Below are positions 52,931 through 60,965 of a stretch of 64,000 nt of DNA, piece after piece (position 1 is the stretch's first letter; the number at the start of each line of letters is the position of its first letter). The translations under genes and the position numbers were made by a program. Source of the stretch: a virus; the IMG/VR virus record IMGVR_UViG_3300026519_000011, positions 1 to 64,000 of that record, one strand, 5' to 3'. Under the pieces are notes generated by a model that worked only from the letters and a program-made list of their open reading frames with translations, did not search any database and was not told the origin of the DNA.

Positions 52931-53215
52931 TTACGCCGTGCGTTCAAGATAATGAAGCAGTAGCGTTAGGTGTGGGTTAGGTCCTTCGCACACGTCTCGC
53001 ATGGTTTTGTAATACTGACATGGCGATAAGGCCTTCTTTAGCCATGCTGACAATAGTATCTCGTCATTCTTCTTTATAGCCAGCGTTAGCGCGTATTTAG
53101 TAGCCAGAGAAATACTACCACTGCGGTCTAATTCGATAAGACACTTTTCTTGTAAACCTCTTGTGTCTTCCCCTTCGATAATTTCTTCCATACTGTTTCC
53201 TTTTATTGACATCAT
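52931..53215 (-). CDS. Small hypothetical protein after the E1-like gene
   Basis: A 94-residue helical protein overlapping the E1-like stop by 4 bases; an internal ATG (residue 9, MEEIIEGEDTRG) is an alternative start. It has three Cys (KCLIE, SPCQYY, DVCEG) and is otherwise unrecognised. Tight coupling to the E1 gene makes it a possible accessory subunit of the conjugation cassette. Confidence 0.5.
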   Translation of the reverse strand: MMSIKGNSMEEIIEGEDTRGLQEKCLIELDRSGSISLATKYALTLAIKKNDEILLSAWLKKALSPCQYYKTMRDVCEGPNPHLTLLLHYLERTA

Positions 53216-53937
53216 AATATTTTCGCCTCACTCTGAAGTAATGGAGGGGTCACCCCTCCAGCTCCGTCTCTAAAGCTATACTTTCTAGCAAAATCCACTT
53301 CCTGTGGGCCATTAAGCGCGTGAACCATTTGCCATAAGGCTGTACATGCTAAACTGTCCGCTGTAGCGCCTACACTTAACGCGCTACCACAAGCACTCAC
53401 TTCCTCGTAAACGTCCTCTGCGGGGAGACTAGCCTCCCACGCCTCTACTTCCACAGGGTTGTCTGGTCTTACCACATAAGTCTCATGGTGAGATACCGCC
53501 ATGCGAGTCTCCACTACTAAAGCAACCATTCCTGAAAGCACCAGCTCATCCATGATCTCCTGTCTTGCCTTGATGGTATCGACAAGAAGAAAAACTATGT
53601 CTCGCTGTTCGGTTAGCTCCAAGTCTTCTGAGGTGGTTACCCACCCCTCCACCGCTGTAACAAGTTGCTGTTCCATGTTCTCATTCACGAACTCAGCGAT
53701 CTGGGTAGCTTTCTTTCCTCCCACATGCCGAGGGAAAAACAACTGGTTGGCTAGGTTGTGCGCCTCCACGGAATCGTCGTCATAGACGAATATATCGGAC
53801 ATACCGAGTTTGGCTAGATGGTATACCACATGGGAGCCTACTGCACCTGCTCCTATGACATGCACCCTGCGGTCATTCATTATTGGATTAAACACCTCTT
53901 GGTGTCTTGCTATATCTATCGTGTTACGTTTTTTCAT
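53212..53937 (-). CDS. ThiF/E1-like adenylating enzyme
   Basis: A 241-residue E1-superfamily protein. The nucleotide-binding motif is V-I-G29-A-G31-A-V-G34; D53-D-D-S-V ends the second strand; N61-L-A-N-Q and G73-G-K-K76 match the ATP-binding N-L-x-R-Q / G-x-x-K region, but with Asn64 where many E1s have Arg. L-V-D120-T-I-K-A-R125 is the magnesium/ATP Asp motif. C183 (SACG) is the best catalytic-Cys candidate; C198 is another. It overlaps the E2-like gene by 4 bases (ATGA). It would activate a ubiquitin-like C-terminus by adenylation and pass it on as a thioester. Confidence 0.9.
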   Translation of the reverse strand: MKKRNTIDIARHQEVFNPIMNDRRVHVIGAGAVGSHVVYHLAKLGMSDIFVYDDDSVEAHNLANQLFFPRHVGGKKATQIAEFVNENMEQQLVTAVEGWVTTSEDLELTEQRDIVFLLVDTIKARQEIMDELVLSGMVALVVETRMAVSHHETYVVRPDNPVEVEAWEASLPAEDVYEEVSACGSALSVGATADSLACTALWQMVHALNGPQEVDFARKYSFRDGAGGVTPPLLQSEAKIL

Positions 53938-55262
53938 GGTCTGTATTCCTCGGAGGATCTGTATTCCTCGGATGGTGTGGTTGCTGTTGATTCATTAGTG
54001 GTTGCGGGTTCTGGTTCTGGTTCTGGTTCTTGTTCTGGTTCGTCATGGTGATGAACGACTACTTTTCTCTGGTATTTCTCGACATCGTATAAGCTATCCA
54101 ACTTATACCCATCCCAGTTACTGGCGGTAAAGTTAGCGAAGTCATAAAAATCCGTTACACCTTCGTCTGCCGCTTCATCAAGCATATTAGTGTTAGATAA
54201 AAATAGGATAAGGTGGTCTACCAGAGACTCGTAATTCCCTGTCTCAAGACAATCCATCACCACGCCCTCATAAGAGCCGAGACAAGGCTGAGTTGCAGCT
54301 TCCCAGGAGTTTGTGTCCAACTTCTCAGAAAAAGGCATAATGCCCCATACGACGTGCGGGTGCGGTATAAGGGCGGAATCTAGTAGTCCTGCCTCATACC
54401 GTGACAGATTATAAATCCGTATGGCATCCCGAACGTATCTCATGCGTGTCGCTCCTTTAGTTAGGTCTACGTGGACAAGGAACTTGCCGCAATATATATC
54501 ACGATCATGATCAGACTGCCCTTCTTGATATTCATCATCGTGAGGATCGAACGTAGCCCTGCCTTGGATATACTCAGTCTCAAAGATTAGCTTCCCATCT
54601 ACCGTACAATAATTCATCACCTTTGGGTGCGTTATTACTGGAATAGAGTCTGCTGGGGGAGACTCTTCAAGCAGAAGTAACTCGGCTTGAAGAGTCTTAT
54701 ACGTATCAACCTGAGCGGCAAGACGCGTCTGCAAATTACTTAGCATTTCCTGCGCATCCACTATCTCTGCGCGAATTCTAGCAGTCCGATCTAGGTTCAC
54801 GATACGCAAGGATTCTGGTATGTTCATGGGGTTAGCGAGAGTAGCGTTCTGCTTCTCTACCCCGTATTTTTGGTACGCGTCTATCACCATGTTCTCAAAG
54901 TGGACATGTGCTTCTGGGTCTCGTTCAAAACTACGGAAATCTGACTCCTCCACCGCTAGGAACAGCCCACCGTCGTAGACGAAGACCGCCCCAGATACCT
55001 GATCCCCTAAGTAAAGTGGTGCGTAAGGGATACCCACCACACCCCAAGAAGACCCAGCCATTGCGTGGCTAAGACCTCTGTACAGAAATATCCCTGCTGG
55101 TATCGCCCCCTTTGCTCCGTTAAATTTCGCATAAACCTGTGCATTACCTATAAATTCAGAGAATAATGCACGTCTCCGGCCTTTGCCGGTGTCGTAATGC
55201 TCATCTATGAATACCGGTAGGCTATACGTCTCTAGAGGCATTCGTCCTATGTATCTAAGCAT
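53934..55262 (-). CDS. E2-like ubiquitin-conjugating-fold protein
   Basis: A 442-residue protein; ATG 55262 with GAGGAGG upstream is preferred to 55304. An N-terminal domain (~1-155) and coiled coil (~160-200) precede an E2-like domain (~215-365) containing H301-P-H-V304 and, 23 residues later, P-C327-L-G, then a helical segment with G-N-Y-E-S-L. HP and CLG motifs are characteristic of bacterial E2-fold proteins, C327 being the thioester Cys. The C-terminal ~40 residues are low complexity (Glu-Pro repeats, duplicated SSEEYR) and include a palindrome-encoded V-H-H-H-D-E. Transfers an activated Ubl from the E1. Confidence 0.8.
   Translation of the reverse strand: MLRYIGRMPLETYSLPVFIDEHYDTGKGRRRALFSEFIGNAQVYAKFNGAKGAIPAGIFLYRGLSHAMAGSSWGVVGIPYAPLYLGDQVSGAVFVYDGGLFLAVEESDFRSFERDPEAHVHFENMVIDAYQKYGVEKQNATLANPMNIPESLRIVNLDRTARIRAEIVDAQEMLSNLQTRLAAQVDTYKTLQAELLLLEESPPADSIPVITHPKVMNYCTVDGKLIFETEYIQGRATFDPHDDEYQEGQSDHDRDIYCGKFLVHVDLTKGATRMRYVRDAIRIYNLSRYEAGLLDSALIPHPHVVWGIMPFSEKLDTNSWEAATQPCLGSYEGVVMDCLETGNYESLVDHLILFLSNTNMLDEAADEGVTDFYDFANFTASNWDGYKLDSLYDVEKYQRKVVVHHHDEPEQEPEPEPEPATTNESTATTPSEEYRSSEEYRP
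54007..54036. repeat. GGTTCT hexanucleotide repeat x5
   Basis: Four perfect GGTTCT units and one TGTTCT run directly into a palindrome copy (54038-54056). They encode the Glu-Pro repeat of the E2-like protein C-terminus. Confidence 0.9.
54038..54056. repeat. Dispersed palindrome, copy 11 (inside a gene)
   Basis: GTTCGTCA-TGG-TGATGAAC. In the low-complexity C-terminus of the E2-like gene, next to GGTTCT repeats. Confidence 0.95.
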
Positions 55263-56649
55263 TACGCGCCTCCTCGTCCTCAGACACTGCTCTGGCACTC
55301 TCACTACCTGCTGATGGTAATAGGTCAGAGCCTCTCTGCCAGCACGCTATCGCCTCGTTACTCATTCCGTATAGATTTGTGAATTCTCTCTCTAATATCT
55401 GTGCCATTTTCTTGACATCCCCCGCTATGAAGGCTTGGTACAGTTGACCGTACAGCATGGATGGTGGCGGTGAGTCTACTATAATTATATTGCTTATGCT
55501 GTCTACGCCAACATATACCTTAGACAGTATTTCCTTTAAAAACTCGCTGTTACTATCTTCTGTTGACCTTGTGGGTAACGTCGTGGAATACTTATAAGGA
55601 TCCTCGAATAACGGGGACACCATAGTGCAAGGATGTATGTGGATTTTTACGTCATTACCTCTATTACTAATGTACATGGAGGATAGGGGTGCAACTCTCT
55701 CCAGCCTTAGAGAGGTGGAGTAGGTCTTAGTACTATTATGGATATGCACCACCACCTCTGGAGCCTTTACCTCCTTGCCTCGCACCTTTATGGTTAGTTC
55801 TGGTATCCGTATGGCCCAAGTGTAATCATCATACACGGTGAATACACTGCCCTTTTTAGTTGTTATCGAACCTACTTCTAGTGTTGGTGATACACCATCA
55901 GCCCTCGCTCTGAGAGCTGCCATTTCATCCTCAGTCTCTTGCACTTCCTGCCCTAGCTTAGCAATATTTTCCCATTCCCTACTCAGAGCGTGCTTCTTAT
56001 CGTGTAAAACGTAGGTAAGCTCTGTTAACCTACCGTTAACCGTGTCGGAATTTTTAGCAGGAATTACTATTCTAGTACTTCCCTGAGGTAAATCTCCATC
56101 AGAAATCTCGCCAAATATTCGTTCGACGAGTGGCTCCAGAACCTTGATCGAGCCTGATGATGAGAAAATATCCCGCGAGGATATTAGCACCTTCTCGCCT
56201 CCTTCTAGCTGTACCGCGATGGCTACTATCTTATTCTCATACTGGAAAAGTATATTATTCACTTTGTCCAGTCCTTCTGCGACGTACACGACACTATTTA
56301 ACGAGGTATACTCAGTCTGGAATATGTGCAGGGATTTAGGGTCTTTCAGGCTGAACACCGCTTCGGTCTCTACTAGACCTTCAGCCTCCACCGTGTTATT
56401 TAAGTAATTCCCTAAGCCAATTCTCTTGGAGTATACAAAAGGTATTGGCGGGTGGTTCAAACACCAAGGTAATATATCGGCATCGGATACTATCGTTCGT
56501 CGGTTTCCTTGCTCGTTTACATCATTAGGGCCTGCCATCCAGCCCCAAATATGCGGGTAATTAGGTATCCTTTCTGGTGTGACCACCAAAGCACCTTTGA
56601 CTACTGCTTCGTAAAGGTTTCCCTCAAAAGGTATTATGTTGTCGTTCAT
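55255..56649 (-). CDS. Second E2-fold-like protein, probably lacking the catalytic Cys
   Basis: A 464-residue protein built like its downstream neighbour: N-terminal domain, coiled coil (~215-250), then a beta-rich domain with I-H-I-H339-P-C341 where the partner has PHPHV, and a closing helix L-Y-Q-A-F-I-A-G-D-V-K-K matching the partner's V-V-M-D-C-L-E-T-G-N-Y-E. Where the partner has P-C-L-G this one has P-S397-M-L-Y-G. I infer an inactive E2 paralogue, analogous to E2 variants that act as cofactors. Overlaps the active E2-like gene by 8 bases. A (GA)n ribosome-binding leader and a palindrome lie upstream. Confidence 0.5.
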   Translation of the reverse strand: MNDNIIPFEGNLYEAVVKGALVVTPERIPNYPHIWGWMAGPNDVNEQGNRRTIVSDADILPWCLNHPPIPFVYSKRIGLGNYLNNTVEAEGLVETEAVFSLKDPKSLHIFQTEYTSLNSVVYVAEGLDKVNNILFQYENKIVAIAVQLEGGEKVLISSRDIFSSSGSIKVLEPLVERIFGEISDGDLPQGSTRIVIPAKNSDTVNGRLTELTYVLHDKKHALSREWENIAKLGQEVQETEDEMAALRARADGVSPTLEVGSITTKKGSVFTVYDDYTWAIRIPELTIKVRGKEVKAPEVVVHIHNSTKTYSTSLRLERVAPLSSMYISNRGNDVKIHIHPCTMVSPLFEDPYKYSTTLPTRSTEDSNSEFLKEILSKVYVGVDSISNIIIVDSPPPSMLYGQLYQAFIAGDVKKMAQILEREFTNLYGMSNEAIACWQRGSDLLPSAGSESARAVSEDEEARNA

Positions 56650-56689
56650 AATTAGTTCTCTCTCTCTCGTTGTGTTTCTAAAAAATATC

Positions 56690-56708
56690 GTTCATCATCG
56701 TGATGAAC
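56690..56708. repeat. Dispersed palindrome, copy 12
   Basis: GTTCATCA-TCG-TGATGAAC in the leader of the second E2-like gene. It overlaps another palindrome, AACGGACGTCCGTT (56706-56719); on the - strand a T6 run follows 5 bases later. Confidence 0.95.
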
Positions 56709-56739
56709 GGACGTCCGTTAAATTGAGGTTTGTACGCTC

Positions 56740-58098
56740 CTAAGTAGCTTTACATTCGTTAAACCTAAGCACCTCAAACCCAGTAAATAGCCACCCAGCC
56801 CCGTCTTCTGATGATGCCTCTAGTAGCGTTTTAGTGGGTGTTAAGTCACCCATAACACCCTTCTCGTTTAATCTCTTATAGGCCTCCTCGTGCTCAACCA
56901 GCACGCCTGTACCTATTACCTCTCCGAATAGGAGAATAGGTATCTCATGTCTGAGATTTCTTAATCCTTTCTCAGCCAAAACATCCACCGAACCACCTTC
57001 TGCTATAGTCTTACCGCAGTCCCTCCCTAAGCTAAACCCATAATCCCATACAGACCTTATACGGGCGATATTTTTCTCGTACCCAGCGAACTCTATGTGA
57101 GTCTCCACCACGGATAATAACCCGTCTCCTACTACCGTGAGCTGGCTGTCCTCCAGCACTTCGTCCAGCCATGTCTTACATCTTGATTCAGGGTCCACAT
57201 CATGTATGCCTACCACAATGCCTTGTGCAATACCTAACAAGGCTACCTCGCTTAGCTCTTGATAAGCATCCAAAAATAGGGAATCACCTCTCGCCAGCCC
57301 CTTCCCAAGAGAGATCAGATCACTGTCAAATGCCGCTAGATGTTCACCCCATAGTTCGAGTTCGCTAAGTGAGTGGGTTATCCCCAACTCCAGATAGCTA
57401 ATAGCTTCTGCATATTCTTCATCCATATCCTCATCATAAATTTCATCTACGAAAGGGTCTGGAGAGGTGTCCACTTGACCTATATACCCTGACAAACCCC
57501 TTCCTCTCCCTTGCCAACCCCCTACTCTGGAACCTTGCCACCCGTATTGGGTTGAATTTGTAGCCACTTTGACATGCTTCAACTGCTTTTTGAGCGCCTT
57601 TATTCTGTCTGTATTGGTATAGACAATCGCCACCGAGAGGTTCTCCCATACAAGGTTAAGCCCTAGGTCGATAGCATCGAAGCGTATTTCCTGCTTCTTA
57701 TTTATAATTATCCTTACCATCTTTTCTCCGTCGGAATAGTTAGACAGAAATTTCTGAATAGTTACCTCATCGTCCGCTGATGGCTTTACCGGCATGTCCA
57801 CATGGGAGTGGCAGTGAACCAGTAGGTCTGATAATTCCTCATCTTCGTCCATCATGTCTTCCCGCATCTTTGCCTCTTGCTCAGGCTCGATGTCGGCATC
57901 CACGGAGGTTACCGTCTGCTCTGGTATTCGTATTGGTCCATGCACTAGCCACACGTTGTCCTCGCTTACGGATAGGTGGGCATAGAATGCTACCTCGGTA
58001 GCTACGGCATTTATTGCGTATAGCATTTCATTGTAGGTGTCATAGGCTATTTGACCTATAGGTGGGGTTTTCTCGTGTAGCACTCTCAGCTTACTCAT
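56740..58098 (-). CDS. JAB/JAMM metalloprotease (deubiquitinase-like)
   Basis: A 452-residue protein; ATG 58098 with GAGGAA upstream is preferred over 58140. The JAMM zinc motif is complete: E35 (TEVAF), H97-S-H99 and D110, with H99 to D110 spaced 11 residues as in AMSH-type enzymes, and S107 before it. A Gly/Arg-rich linker (~200-225) leads to a helical C-terminal domain (~240-450) that is not recognised. It would cut iso- or C-terminal peptide bonds of a ubiquitin-like protein, either maturing the precursor or removing it from targets. Unlike lambda gpK it is far from tail tip genes and lacks an NlpC/P60 part. Confidence 0.82.
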   Translation of the reverse strand: MSKLRVLHEKTPPIGQIAYDTYNEMLYAINAVATEVAFYAHLSVSEDNVWLVHGPIRIPEQTVTSVDADIEPEQEAKMREDMMDEDEELSDLLVHCHSHVDMPVKPSADDEVTIQKFLSNYSDGEKMVRIIINKKQEIRFDAIDLGLNLVWENLSVAIVYTNTDRIKALKKQLKHVKVATNSTQYGWQGSRVGGWQGRGRGLSGYIGQVDTSPDPFVDEIYDEDMDEEYAEAISYLELGITHSLSELELWGEHLAAFDSDLISLGKGLARGDSLFLDAYQELSEVALLGIAQGIVVGIHDVDPESRCKTWLDEVLEDSQLTVVGDGLLSVVETHIEFAGYEKNIARIRSVWDYGFSLGRDCGKTIAEGGSVDVLAEKGLRNLRHEIPILLFGEVIGTGVLVEHEEAYKRLNEKGVMGDLTPTKTLLEASSEDGAGWLFTGFEVLRFNECKAT

Positions 58099-58161
58099 AT
58101 CATTTCCTCGGATGTATAACGTAAAATTACCAGCCACCATTGGCCTGTAATTGTTGAATTT

Positions 58162-58195
58162 AAAATAGAGGTCGGAACACGACTATCGACCTCTA
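58162..58195 (-). terminator. Intrinsic terminator between the Ubl candidate and JAB genes
   Basis: On the - strand TAGAGGTCG (58187-58195) pairs with CGACCTCTA (58166-58174) over 12 bases, followed by TTTT. It starts 43 bases after the Ubl-candidate stop. It would make the upstream gene more abundant than the enzymes downstream. Confidence 0.75.
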
Positions 58196-58238
58196 GCCTA
58201 CTTAGTAGGGCTTGGTGCTACTGACTACAACATTAAAC

Positions 58239-58961
58239 TTAGTCTTGTGCTTTGTCATCGACATGCTCTGATTCAACATTTTTAGTTCCAGTAAGGTCTA
58301 TGGCACAGGCTTCAACCTCTTCAGGTAGTTCCTTACTCACGGCGTTTATCGCTTCTACACGACGTGCTAACTCTATCGTCTGCTCAGCACATGAGGTAGC
58401 TACCTCAAGGCGTATGTTCCAGTCCTTGACCGTGTTATCCATTTCTGTAGCATTAAGTACGCTAATGACTAGCGGGTAATCCGTGTCATCAGCTTGCGCC
58501 TCCTGTACGCTCATTGCACGCTTCTTGGTAACTACTCCTATCATGCCTGGGTTACCTGTTATAACTAGAGAACCTACCTCCACTTTGTTCTTAGCTACGA
58601 CAGGTGAGAGTATGCAAGGCGTGCTCAAACCTTCTGGATTACTACGACGTTTAATCGCCTTCTTGTTACCGAACTCCAAAGGGTCTGATAAAGCTACCTC
58701 ACACACCGTCAATCCCTCAGTCATTAGTAACGCTAACTGGGTAGCTCTGTTAGATGACTTAGAGCCTCCTGCAAAAGAGATTCTAGTGTAGGTATGTGCC
58801 AGCGCTGACCCAGATAACTCCACCCCTCCAGATGATGGCTTTAAACCTGAATCAAGCCCTAGTTTTTCTTTAAGACCATCAATAGTCAGGGTGTCGTCGA
58901 TGGTGACTGGTCCCGTAGTAGACATTGATGGGGTTATTACTCGTATAGTTGTAGTACTCAT
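58239..58961 (-). CDS. Candidate ubiquitin-like (beta-grasp) domain protein
   Basis: A 240-residue protein. The N-terminal ~68 residues read as a beta-grasp pattern: strand (TTTIRVIT), strand (GPVTIDDTLT), helix (IDGLKEKLGL), strand (GVELSGS), then TRISFAGG at G65-G66 followed by Ser-Lys. A JAB cut after the Gly-Gly would expose a ubiquitin-like end, but this is speculation. The rest (~75-240) is a separate alpha/beta domain with an acidic tail. It is upstream of the JAB/E2/E1 genes, separated by a terminator; leader has a palindrome (59000) and AACGTAA box. It could instead be an unrelated abundant early protein. Confidence 0.4.
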   Translation of the reverse strand: MSTTTIRVITPSMSTTGPVTIDDTLTIDGLKEKLGLDSGLKPSSGGVELSGSALAHTYTRISFAGGSKSSNRATQLALLMTEGLTVCEVALSDPLEFGNKKAIKRRSNPEGLSTPCILSPVVAKNKVEVGSLVITGNPGMIGVVTKKRAMSVQEAQADDTDYPLVISVLNATEMDNTVKDWNIRLEVATSCAEQTIELARRVEAINAVSKELPEEVEACAIDLTGTKNVESEHVDDKAQD

Positions 58962-59787: not shown

Positions 59788-59816
59788 ATTATAGCACACT
59801 TTAAGGCGTTTGTCAA
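59788..59816 (-). promoter_or_regulatory. Consensus sigma-70 promoter
   Basis: On the - strand TTGACA (59811-59816), 17-base spacer, TATAAT (59788-59793): a perfect match to the host housekeeping promoter, preceded by CTAGGGG as at 41286-41314. A palindrome copy lies 46 bases downstream, inside the transcribed leader. Confidence 0.92.
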
Positions 59817-60440: not shown

Positions 60441-60965
60441 TTACGTATTATTGGGGTCTAATGGCGTACCGTTTTTAGTAAACAGCCTACCATCATTAAC
60501 ATCTACACCAGCCTTCAAGGATAGGGCGGTGTTGTCTCCTTCTGCTAAGTCTTTTAGTACACTTGATAGTGCTACTTTCTTCGCGGTTCTACCAAGACTT
60601 GAGAACACATACGCTCTAGGTTTATTTGGGTTGTCCGCTGAAGACAGCTTATGTCGACGGTACTCTTCTGAAGCTCTCACAAACTCCTCCAAACCCTCTA
60701 TCAACTCCATAAGCACATCCCCAGCATAGGTTGGTTCGCACCCTGTTTTCGTCCGAGTCATAAGCCGTACACCCATGATCTTTTCCACCTTAACTATCTT
60801 TAGGCTTACCGCGGGCTGAGAAACCCCAAGCGCAAGGGCTGCCCCAGTGAAACTCTCCGCCTCGTAGACCGCTTTGAATACTCTCAGCTCGTTACTCATG
60901 AAGAGTTCATCCATAATAGACCCCCGTATCACTGGGGGTTTCTTGGTGTCGTGCTTACTTTTCAT
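60441..60965 (-). CDS. LysR-type HTH protein without effector domain
   Basis: A 174-residue protein. Residues ~25-85 match a LysR-family winged helix: N-E-L-R-V-F-K-A-V-Y-E-A-E-S-F-T-G-A-A-L-A-L-G-V-S-Q-P-A-V-S, followed by L-M-T-R-T-K-T-G and a linker helix. The usual ~200-residue ligand-binding domain is missing; only ~65 residues follow. It may therefore be a constitutive DNA binder controlling phage or host genes. An internal ATG (residue 18) is an alternative start. Overlaps the 56-residue gene upstream by 11 bases. Confidence 0.75.
   Translation of the reverse strand: MKSKHDTKKPPVIRGSIMDELFMSNELRVFKAVYEAESFTGAALALGVSQPAVSLKIVKVEKIMGVRLMTRTKTGCEPTYAGDVLMELIEGLEEFVRASEEYRRHKLSSADNPNKPRAYVFSSLGRTAKKVALSSVLKDLAEGDNTALSLKAGVDVNDGRLFTKNGTPLDPNNT

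Follow-up and report, generated by a model that had tools for sequence, protein, structure and literature searches.

Comparison of a phage gene cassette with known ubiquitin-like conjugation systems

In bacteria, ubiquitin-like conjugation has been known chiefly as a defence against phages. Among the described systems we considered PRTRC, which we take to be operon type 6d of Iyer, Burroughs and Aravind, as well as BilABCD, CBASS and the tail module of phages lambda and T1. Bacterial operon types with a ubiquitin-like protein (Ubl), a JAB protease, an activating enzyme (E1) and a conjugating enzyme (E2) were predicted in 2006, and the phage case named in that work is the lambda/T1 tail module (PMC1779556). 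Here we analysed a window of 64,000 bases from the 67,782-base IMG/VR virus record IMGVR_UViG_3300026519_000011 and, within it, a cassette of five genes at 53212-58961. An initial annotation had described this cassette as encoding an E1, two E2-like proteins, a JAB protease and a Ubl candidate. We conclude, with a probability of roughly 0.7, that it is a cascade, encoded by the phage among its replication genes, for the conjugation of a ubiquitin-like protein. Three of the proteins are homologous to E1, E2 and JAB enzymes and carry active-site residues of these enzymes, the genes occur together in other phages, and many of the sister cassettes also encode a small Ubl. Such a recurrent module has hardly been described in phages. 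A literature search whose coverage excluded subscription journals and preprints returned no paper describing phage cassettes of this kind, so that a prior description is possible, and the crAss phage papers that we checked do not mention the cassette in their main text.

PRTRC, like the phage cassettes, has separate genes for a Ubl (protein C), an E2-like protein (B), a JAB (A) and an E1 (ThiF). All four activities are found in relatives of the window cassette, and the window itself has three of them plus a Ubl candidate. The gene order in PRTRC is C-F-B-A-ThiF, and the corresponding order, Ubl-E2-JAB-E1, is found in most phage cassettes. The DGSVCWG motif of PRTRC protein B resembles the phage E2 motif NGSICWG; when profiles of the phage E2s and of PRTRC B were compared, only this Cys motif aligned (E = 0.0095, two sequences), which is not decisive. 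Against the PRTRC_ThiF model the window E1 scored 54.3 bits, below the cutoff of 144.75. Among ten cassette and neighbouring proteins scanned, there was no match to the PRTRC A, B, C, E and F models, and neither a ParB-related protein nor PRTRC E or F was present. The phage E2s retain an upstream HPH or HPN, whereas type 6d does not; the PRTRC E1 has the Arg of the NxxRQ motif, whereas the phage E1s have Asn, Gly or Ser there; and the phage cassette E1s occupy a branch of the tree separate from PRTRC ThiF. Because the PRTRC models were not matched and both the E1 and the E2 differ in their motifs, the cassette is best regarded as a phage branch within the wider class of systems to which PRTRC belongs, not as a PRTRC member.

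BilABCD likewise has Ubl, E2, JAB and E1 as four separate activities (PMC11354881). In this comparison, made from the description of Bil, BilA has two Ubl domains whereas the phage Ubls look single, and Bil is a bacterial host defence whereas the present cassettes are carried by phages. The adenylation domain of the CBASS E1 is related to the window E1 (NCBIfam 6A-MBL cap2_3, 8.5e-19; PADLOC E1-E2, 6e-13; Cap2 in the PDB, 4e-4), and a JAB is also shared with CBASS type II and 6A-MBL systems. However, Cap2 of CBASS is a fusion of E2 and E1, whereas the phage E1 and E2 are separate genes, and the match to these models covers just their E1 domain. No cGAS-like nucleotidyltransferase or metallo-beta-lactamase was recognised among the window proteins scanned, and the Ubl present in sister phage cassettes is a further difference from CBASS type II and 6A-MBL. 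Tail proteins I and K of lambda/T1 likewise represent a phage-encoded Ubl and JAB (JAB/NlpC). The lambda/T1 tail module has no E1 or E2 (PMC1779556), whereas the present cassette has both and lies in a replication module. With UBE2L3 and other eukaryotic E2s, the compact phage E2s share the HPx-x7-C spacing, a beta-meander and similarity of fold; they differ in an N-terminal coiled-coil-like region, in HPH mostly replacing HPN and, in some, in large inserts. Such near-canonical phage E2s are relevant to how eukaryotic ubiquitin systems originated.

Distribution of the cassette among phages

Related loci (about 48, designated by L numbers) were gathered by scanning viral and genome contigs with E1 alignments. 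Alignments of two or three E1s were the working queries; an alignment of six E1s was too divergent. Scans of viral contigs with single E1 and JAB proteins gave no confirmed relatives, a pattern search was too narrow, and tblastn of the window JAB and E2 in phages found nothing. Of 50 loci selected on E1 alone, 42 had a JAB near the E1, 36 had an E2 (HPx type) or a crAss-type E2 candidate nearby, and 33 had a small Ubl or a candidate for one; several of the incomplete loci end at a contig edge. These counts show that the grouping of E1, JAB and E2 exceeds chance. Over 659 kb, every match to the profiles of the five components, which were seeded partly from open reading frames (ORFs) near E1, lay in the neighbourhood of E1 and on its strand. 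Motif, position and order tie the crAss-type E2 and Ubl to the other types; their profile scores are not significant.

The carriers include Flavobacterium, Xanthomonas and environmental phages as well as crAss-like phages, which are more common in the human gut than any other viruses. Carriers in culture include Bacteroides PhiCrAssBcn1 and Flavobacterium FpV4. Xanthomonas PhiXhv-12 encodes an E1, an E2 and a Ubl candidate with a terminal GG, with no JAB found beside them, and Erwinia Ep032 carries the E1. In public records the cassette genes of the cultured carriers are annotated as 'thiamine biosynthesis protein' and as hypothetical proteins. The neighbours of the cassette in annotated phages are primase, uracil-DNA glycosylase, exonuclease, ligase or topoisomerase genes, and those in the window are PolA, SNF2 helicase and SbcCD-like genes. 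The view that a phage-borne set of E1, E2 and JAB lies in the DNA replication/recombination arm is supported. The probable cascade is carried by phages themselves, in lineages that include crAss-like phages. Because cultured phages carry the cassette, whether bacterial viruses use protein tagging is testable at once.

About 300 bases after the E1 of one relative, a ClpA/ClpC-like AAA+ unfoldase is encoded (L055:7962-10478; Clp_N, AAA_2 and ClpB_D2-small domains). No such unfoldase was seen beside the other cassettes looked at; the one in L055 could hint at Ubl-directed unfolding or proteolysis.

The E1-like enzyme

The E1-like Ubl-activating enzyme is encoded at 53212-53937 on the minus strand. 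It matched ThiF (PF00899) with an E-value of 2.2e-24, and the motifs GAGAVG, DDD, NLANQ, GGKK and LVDTIKAR were all present, together with Cys183 (codon 53389-53391). Its relatives in the PDB are ThiF, MoeB, the NEDD8 E1, UBA1, the SUMO E1, UBA5-type enzymes and Cap2. Seven residues, G29, G31, D53, D55, N61, K76 and D120, are invariant in 54 of 54 aligned E1s, and Cys183 is kept in all 52 sequences long enough to reach that position. Cys183 aligns with the Cys in the NCRTAG motif of E. coli ThiF, the catalytic Cys184 of that enzyme. Thus, the window E1 has the Rossmann adenylation domain, the GxGxxG motif, the D, K and D residues and the Cys at the catalytic position that characterise the superfamily. 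The Arg of the NxxRQ motif, in contrast, is replaced by Asn64 (codon 53746-53748), so the enzyme is a variant and not a standard member of the E1 superfamily. Position 64 is Asn or Gly in 38 of the 54 E1s compared and Ser, Tyr, Thr, Val or His in 12, with Arg found only in the PRTRC ThiFs, L067 and L075. The Arg residues of NxxRQ in MoeB (Arg73) and UBA1 (Arg515) occupy the ATP gamma-phosphate site (PMC12355090).

Another arginine, Arg145, is conserved in nearly all E1s without the NxxRQ Arg and is absent where that Arg is kept. It may be a relocated, compensating residue or an effect of the alignment. Since the window E1 has just two cysteines, at positions 183 and 198, the zinc-binding CxxC pairs of ThiF and MoeB are not present in its sequence. 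In the E1 tree, the window enzyme groups with those of L007, L070, L008 and L033 (98/86), in a 22-row clade apart from PRTRC ThiF, and L075 clusters with ordinary ThiF.

The E2-like enzyme and its family

The product of 53934-55262 (minus strand) comprises a central coiled-coil-like stretch and an E2 domain. The HPHV...PCLG motif reported in the initial annotation was located in this domain, with His301 at 54360-54362 and the catalytic-position Cys327 at 54282-54284, counted from the ATG at 55262. Twenty loci, the window included, encode a protein beside the E1 in which HP[HCN] is followed by C-x-G. The motifs of L057 (HPHIHENGSICWG) and L062 (HPNISSDGDICWG) have the ten-residue His-Cys spacing of eukaryotic E2s. 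Over 21 aligned proteins of the family, four residues (HP, C and G) are invariant. When the window protein was left out of the family profile, the profile still found it with 37.7 bits (E = 5.7e-11), compared with 0.34 for the next-best ORF of the window. The E2-like family members scanned against Pfam gave no convincing match.

A profile of ten compact E2s (A13) was compared with all PDB sequences, and all 33 matches with E<=10 were ubiquitin-conjugating enzymes. The best of these, UBE2L3 (E = 0.0015), was aligned through its active site, HPN-x7-C. We also modelled the E2 of a compact relative, L073, using AlphaFold2. The model had a predicted local distance difference test score (pLDDT) of 92.3 and a predicted template modelling score (pTM) of 0.85, and it resembles an E2. 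Its top Foldseek match was UbcH7 (probability 0.99, template modelling score (TM) 0.51, E 0.024), with Cdc34 (TM 0.50) and the kinetochore RWD protein Knl1 at lower ranks. An HPN-like motif followed by a Cys, together with sequence similarity to E2s, is found at the level of the family and in the window protein. To judge from these features, 53934-55262 is an E2-like enzyme.

A second E2 had been proposed in the 464-residue protein encoded between the JAB and E2 genes (55255-56649, minus strand). This protein reached 0.8 bits against the E2 profile, lacks a Cys at the catalytic position, matches no family and shows zero similarity to the real E2, and was rejected; of the two proposed E2-like proteins, then, only 53934-55262 was retained. 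Two tandem E2 genes are present in each of two relatives (L056:4744-6280 and L013:4674-6608), so that E2 duplication does occur in the family, though it is not shown for the window.

The JAB protease and the ubiquitin-like proteins

The JAB/JAMM metalloprotease is encoded at 56740-58098 on the minus strand; its ORF opens at 58140 and the ATG at 58098 has a GAGGA ribosome-binding site. Counted from this ATG, Glu35 (57994-57996), His97 (57808-57810), His99 (57802-57804) and Asp110 (57769-57771) were confirmed, including the Ser within H97-S-H99. They form E-(n)-HSH-x7-S-x2-D, an instance of the JAMM zinc motif E-(n)-H[ST]H-x7-S-x2-D. The Pfam Prok-JAB match was weak and below the cutoff (4.6e-4). 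Using phmmer, the window JAB matched those of L033 (7.7e-15), L008 (9e-14) and L007 (2e-12), and the E, HSH, S and D residues are invariant between the window JAB and its relatives. About 260 extra C-terminal residues of the window JAB (56740-57540) are not alignable to the relatives.

The small beta-grasp Ubls of sister cassettes are 69-98 residues long, or 126 in L009. Their C-termini carry GG, KGG or GAKGN, followed in most by a short tail; short tails after GG are as expected if these proteins are precursors trimmed by a JAB. A profile of nine sequences found six Ubls that had not been used as seeds (L070, L033, L072, L059, L056 and L057) with 67-27 bits. The best Pfam matches of the small sister Ubls include ThiS, Ub-Mut7C, SAMP2 and RnfH, and the ThiS match to the L072 Ubl (2e-5) is above the cutoff.

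The Ubl gene comes first in most of the relative cassettes, which is the positional basis for a candidate in the first gene of the window cassette (58239-58961, minus strand). Its 240-residue product has a possible beta-grasp domain at about residues 1-66, a GG at 65-66 and a long C-terminal tail. The Ubl candidates of the crAss-like phages and FpV4 have a comparable design, in which a domain and SGA/GG are followed by a tail of about 150 residues. For residues 1-68 the only Pfam match was OTU1_UBXL, a ubiquitin-like domain (E = 0.058), and a shuffle test of pairwise alignments gave a mean z of 0.9, which is not significant. Although hhalign ranked 58239-58961 first, this rank was not used because only a stretch beyond the GG was aligned. 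Position and design make this protein a candidate, but profile, hhalign, Pfam and shuffle tests gave nothing significant. We regard 58239-58961 as a positional Ubl candidate that is unproven; the autonomy initially proposed for the system is hence unproven too, as is the suggested interference with host Ubl-type defence.

Proposed cascade and alternative explanations

In the proposed cascade, the JAB would trim the tail of a small beta-grasp Ubl, exposing its C-terminal glycine(s). The E1 would then adenylate the Ubl glycine using ATP and hold the Ubl as a thioester on C183. From there the E2, in which HPH is found in place of the eukaryotic HPN, would receive the Ubl on its active-site Cys, C327. 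During infection, the E2 would join the Ubl to a lysine in a protein of the phage or the host, and the JAB would take it off again. The catalytic steps, the timing of expression and the target are what we infer, and the choice of Ubl in this genome is a guess. Most probably, the cassette serves to attach a Ubl of the phage to proteins of the phage itself or of its host. We favour a part in the programme of takeover or replication of the phage itself over that of an accessory weapon, because the cassette lies among replication genes and is spread across crAss-like phages. A broader proposal, to which we give slightly better than even odds, is that tailed phages own a lineage of complete Ubl conjugation systems (Ubl, HPN/HPH E2, JAB and an E1 without the ATP-site Arg of NxxRQ), located in the replication module, present in cultured crAss-like phages among others, and modifying phage or host proteins in normal infection.

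Several results weigh against a conjugation cascade. Because the phage E1s are without the Arg of the ATP gamma-phosphate site, their activation chemistry may differ. In the window E2, the distance from His to Cys is 26 residues compared with the usual 10. Even for the good model of the L073 E2, the TM was modest and the E-value was 0.024. The AlphaFold model of the window E2 domain itself, made from a 21-row alignment, was poor (pLDDT 69) and gave no meaningful Foldseek match. Consequently, on the question of whether 53934-55262 has an E2 fold, the profile indicates an E2 while its own model matched nothing, and the assignment rests on sequence. The crAss-type E2 was assigned by motif and position, with E-values of 0.03 or worse against the E2 profile. 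Finally, the Ubl profile matched no ORF of the window or of the 67.8 kb record.

This last result would be explained if the set in this phage were incomplete, with the E1, E2 and JAB serving a host Ubl or being decaying remnants and 58239-58961 being unrelated. That the weak tests of 58239-58961 fall short of significance points the same way. We nevertheless consider such an explanation unlikely. Leaving aside the Arg change common to the E1 family, the E1, E2 and JAB retain their catalytic residues, and the ORFs follow one another closely. A Ubl gene is small, divergent and easily missed, and the record itself may be incomplete. We judge it about equally unlikely that the cascade is a weapon that tags structural proteins of rival phages or host defence proteins, for superinfection exclusion or counter-defence. 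The bacterial BilABCD system, which has the same four activities, reportedly tags phage structural proteins. The spread of the cassette across unrelated phages is patchy, its divergence is strong, and the best defence-model matches of the E1 are CBASS E1-E2 proteins. However, the cassette is found among replication genes and not at a moron or defence site, no effector specific to defence was recognised in its vicinity, and its presence in diverse crAss-like phages suggests a housekeeping role.

A sulfur-carrier or thiocarboxylate system, in which the E1 and a ThiS/MoaD-like protein would transfer sulfur (to a nucleotide, tRNA or cysteine), the JAB would free the product and the E2-like protein would be a non-catalytic scaffold, agrees with the ThiS-type matches of the sister Ubls and with ThiF being one of the nearest relatives of the E1 in the PDB, but it is improbable given the E2s with invariant HP, C and G residues in the same cassettes, a window E1 without zinc-binding CxxC pairs, and neighbours among which no rhodanese or sulfur gene was seen in the scan. 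A conjugation cascade is the simplest reading, because a bare sulfur-carrier role leaves the E2s unexplained.

Gene layout and genomic setting

All five cassette ORFs were confirmed on the minus strand at the coordinates first given. The cassette had been described as lying on one strand within 5 kb; the single strand is correct, and the true length is 5.75 kb. The E1 and E2 genes share four bases, and the E2 gene overlaps 55255-56649 by eight. Ribosome-binding sites back the annotated starts of the E2 (ATG 55262) and JAB (ATG 58098) genes. Upstream of the cassette, at 59788-59816 on the minus strand, is a sigma70-like promoter, TTGACA-17-TATAAT with TG before the -10 element. It matches the consensus at 12 of 12 positions, the sole such match in 12.5 kb, and is a consensus match, not proof. 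A pattern scan also found a terminator-like hairpin of nine pairs with the tail ATATTTTTTA at 56689-56709 (minus strand), in the gap between the JAB gene and 55255-56649; terminator-like sites occur at about 1.7 times the count in shuffled sequence, so this hairpin is suggestive at most.

By terminase and major head protein, the nearest kin of this phage, though distant, are Pseudomonas phages PMBT3/Lana and Vibrio phages such as SHOU24. In the gene arm that holds the cassette, 60441-60965 encodes a protein that, judged by eye, has an N-terminal LysR-type helix-turn-helix.

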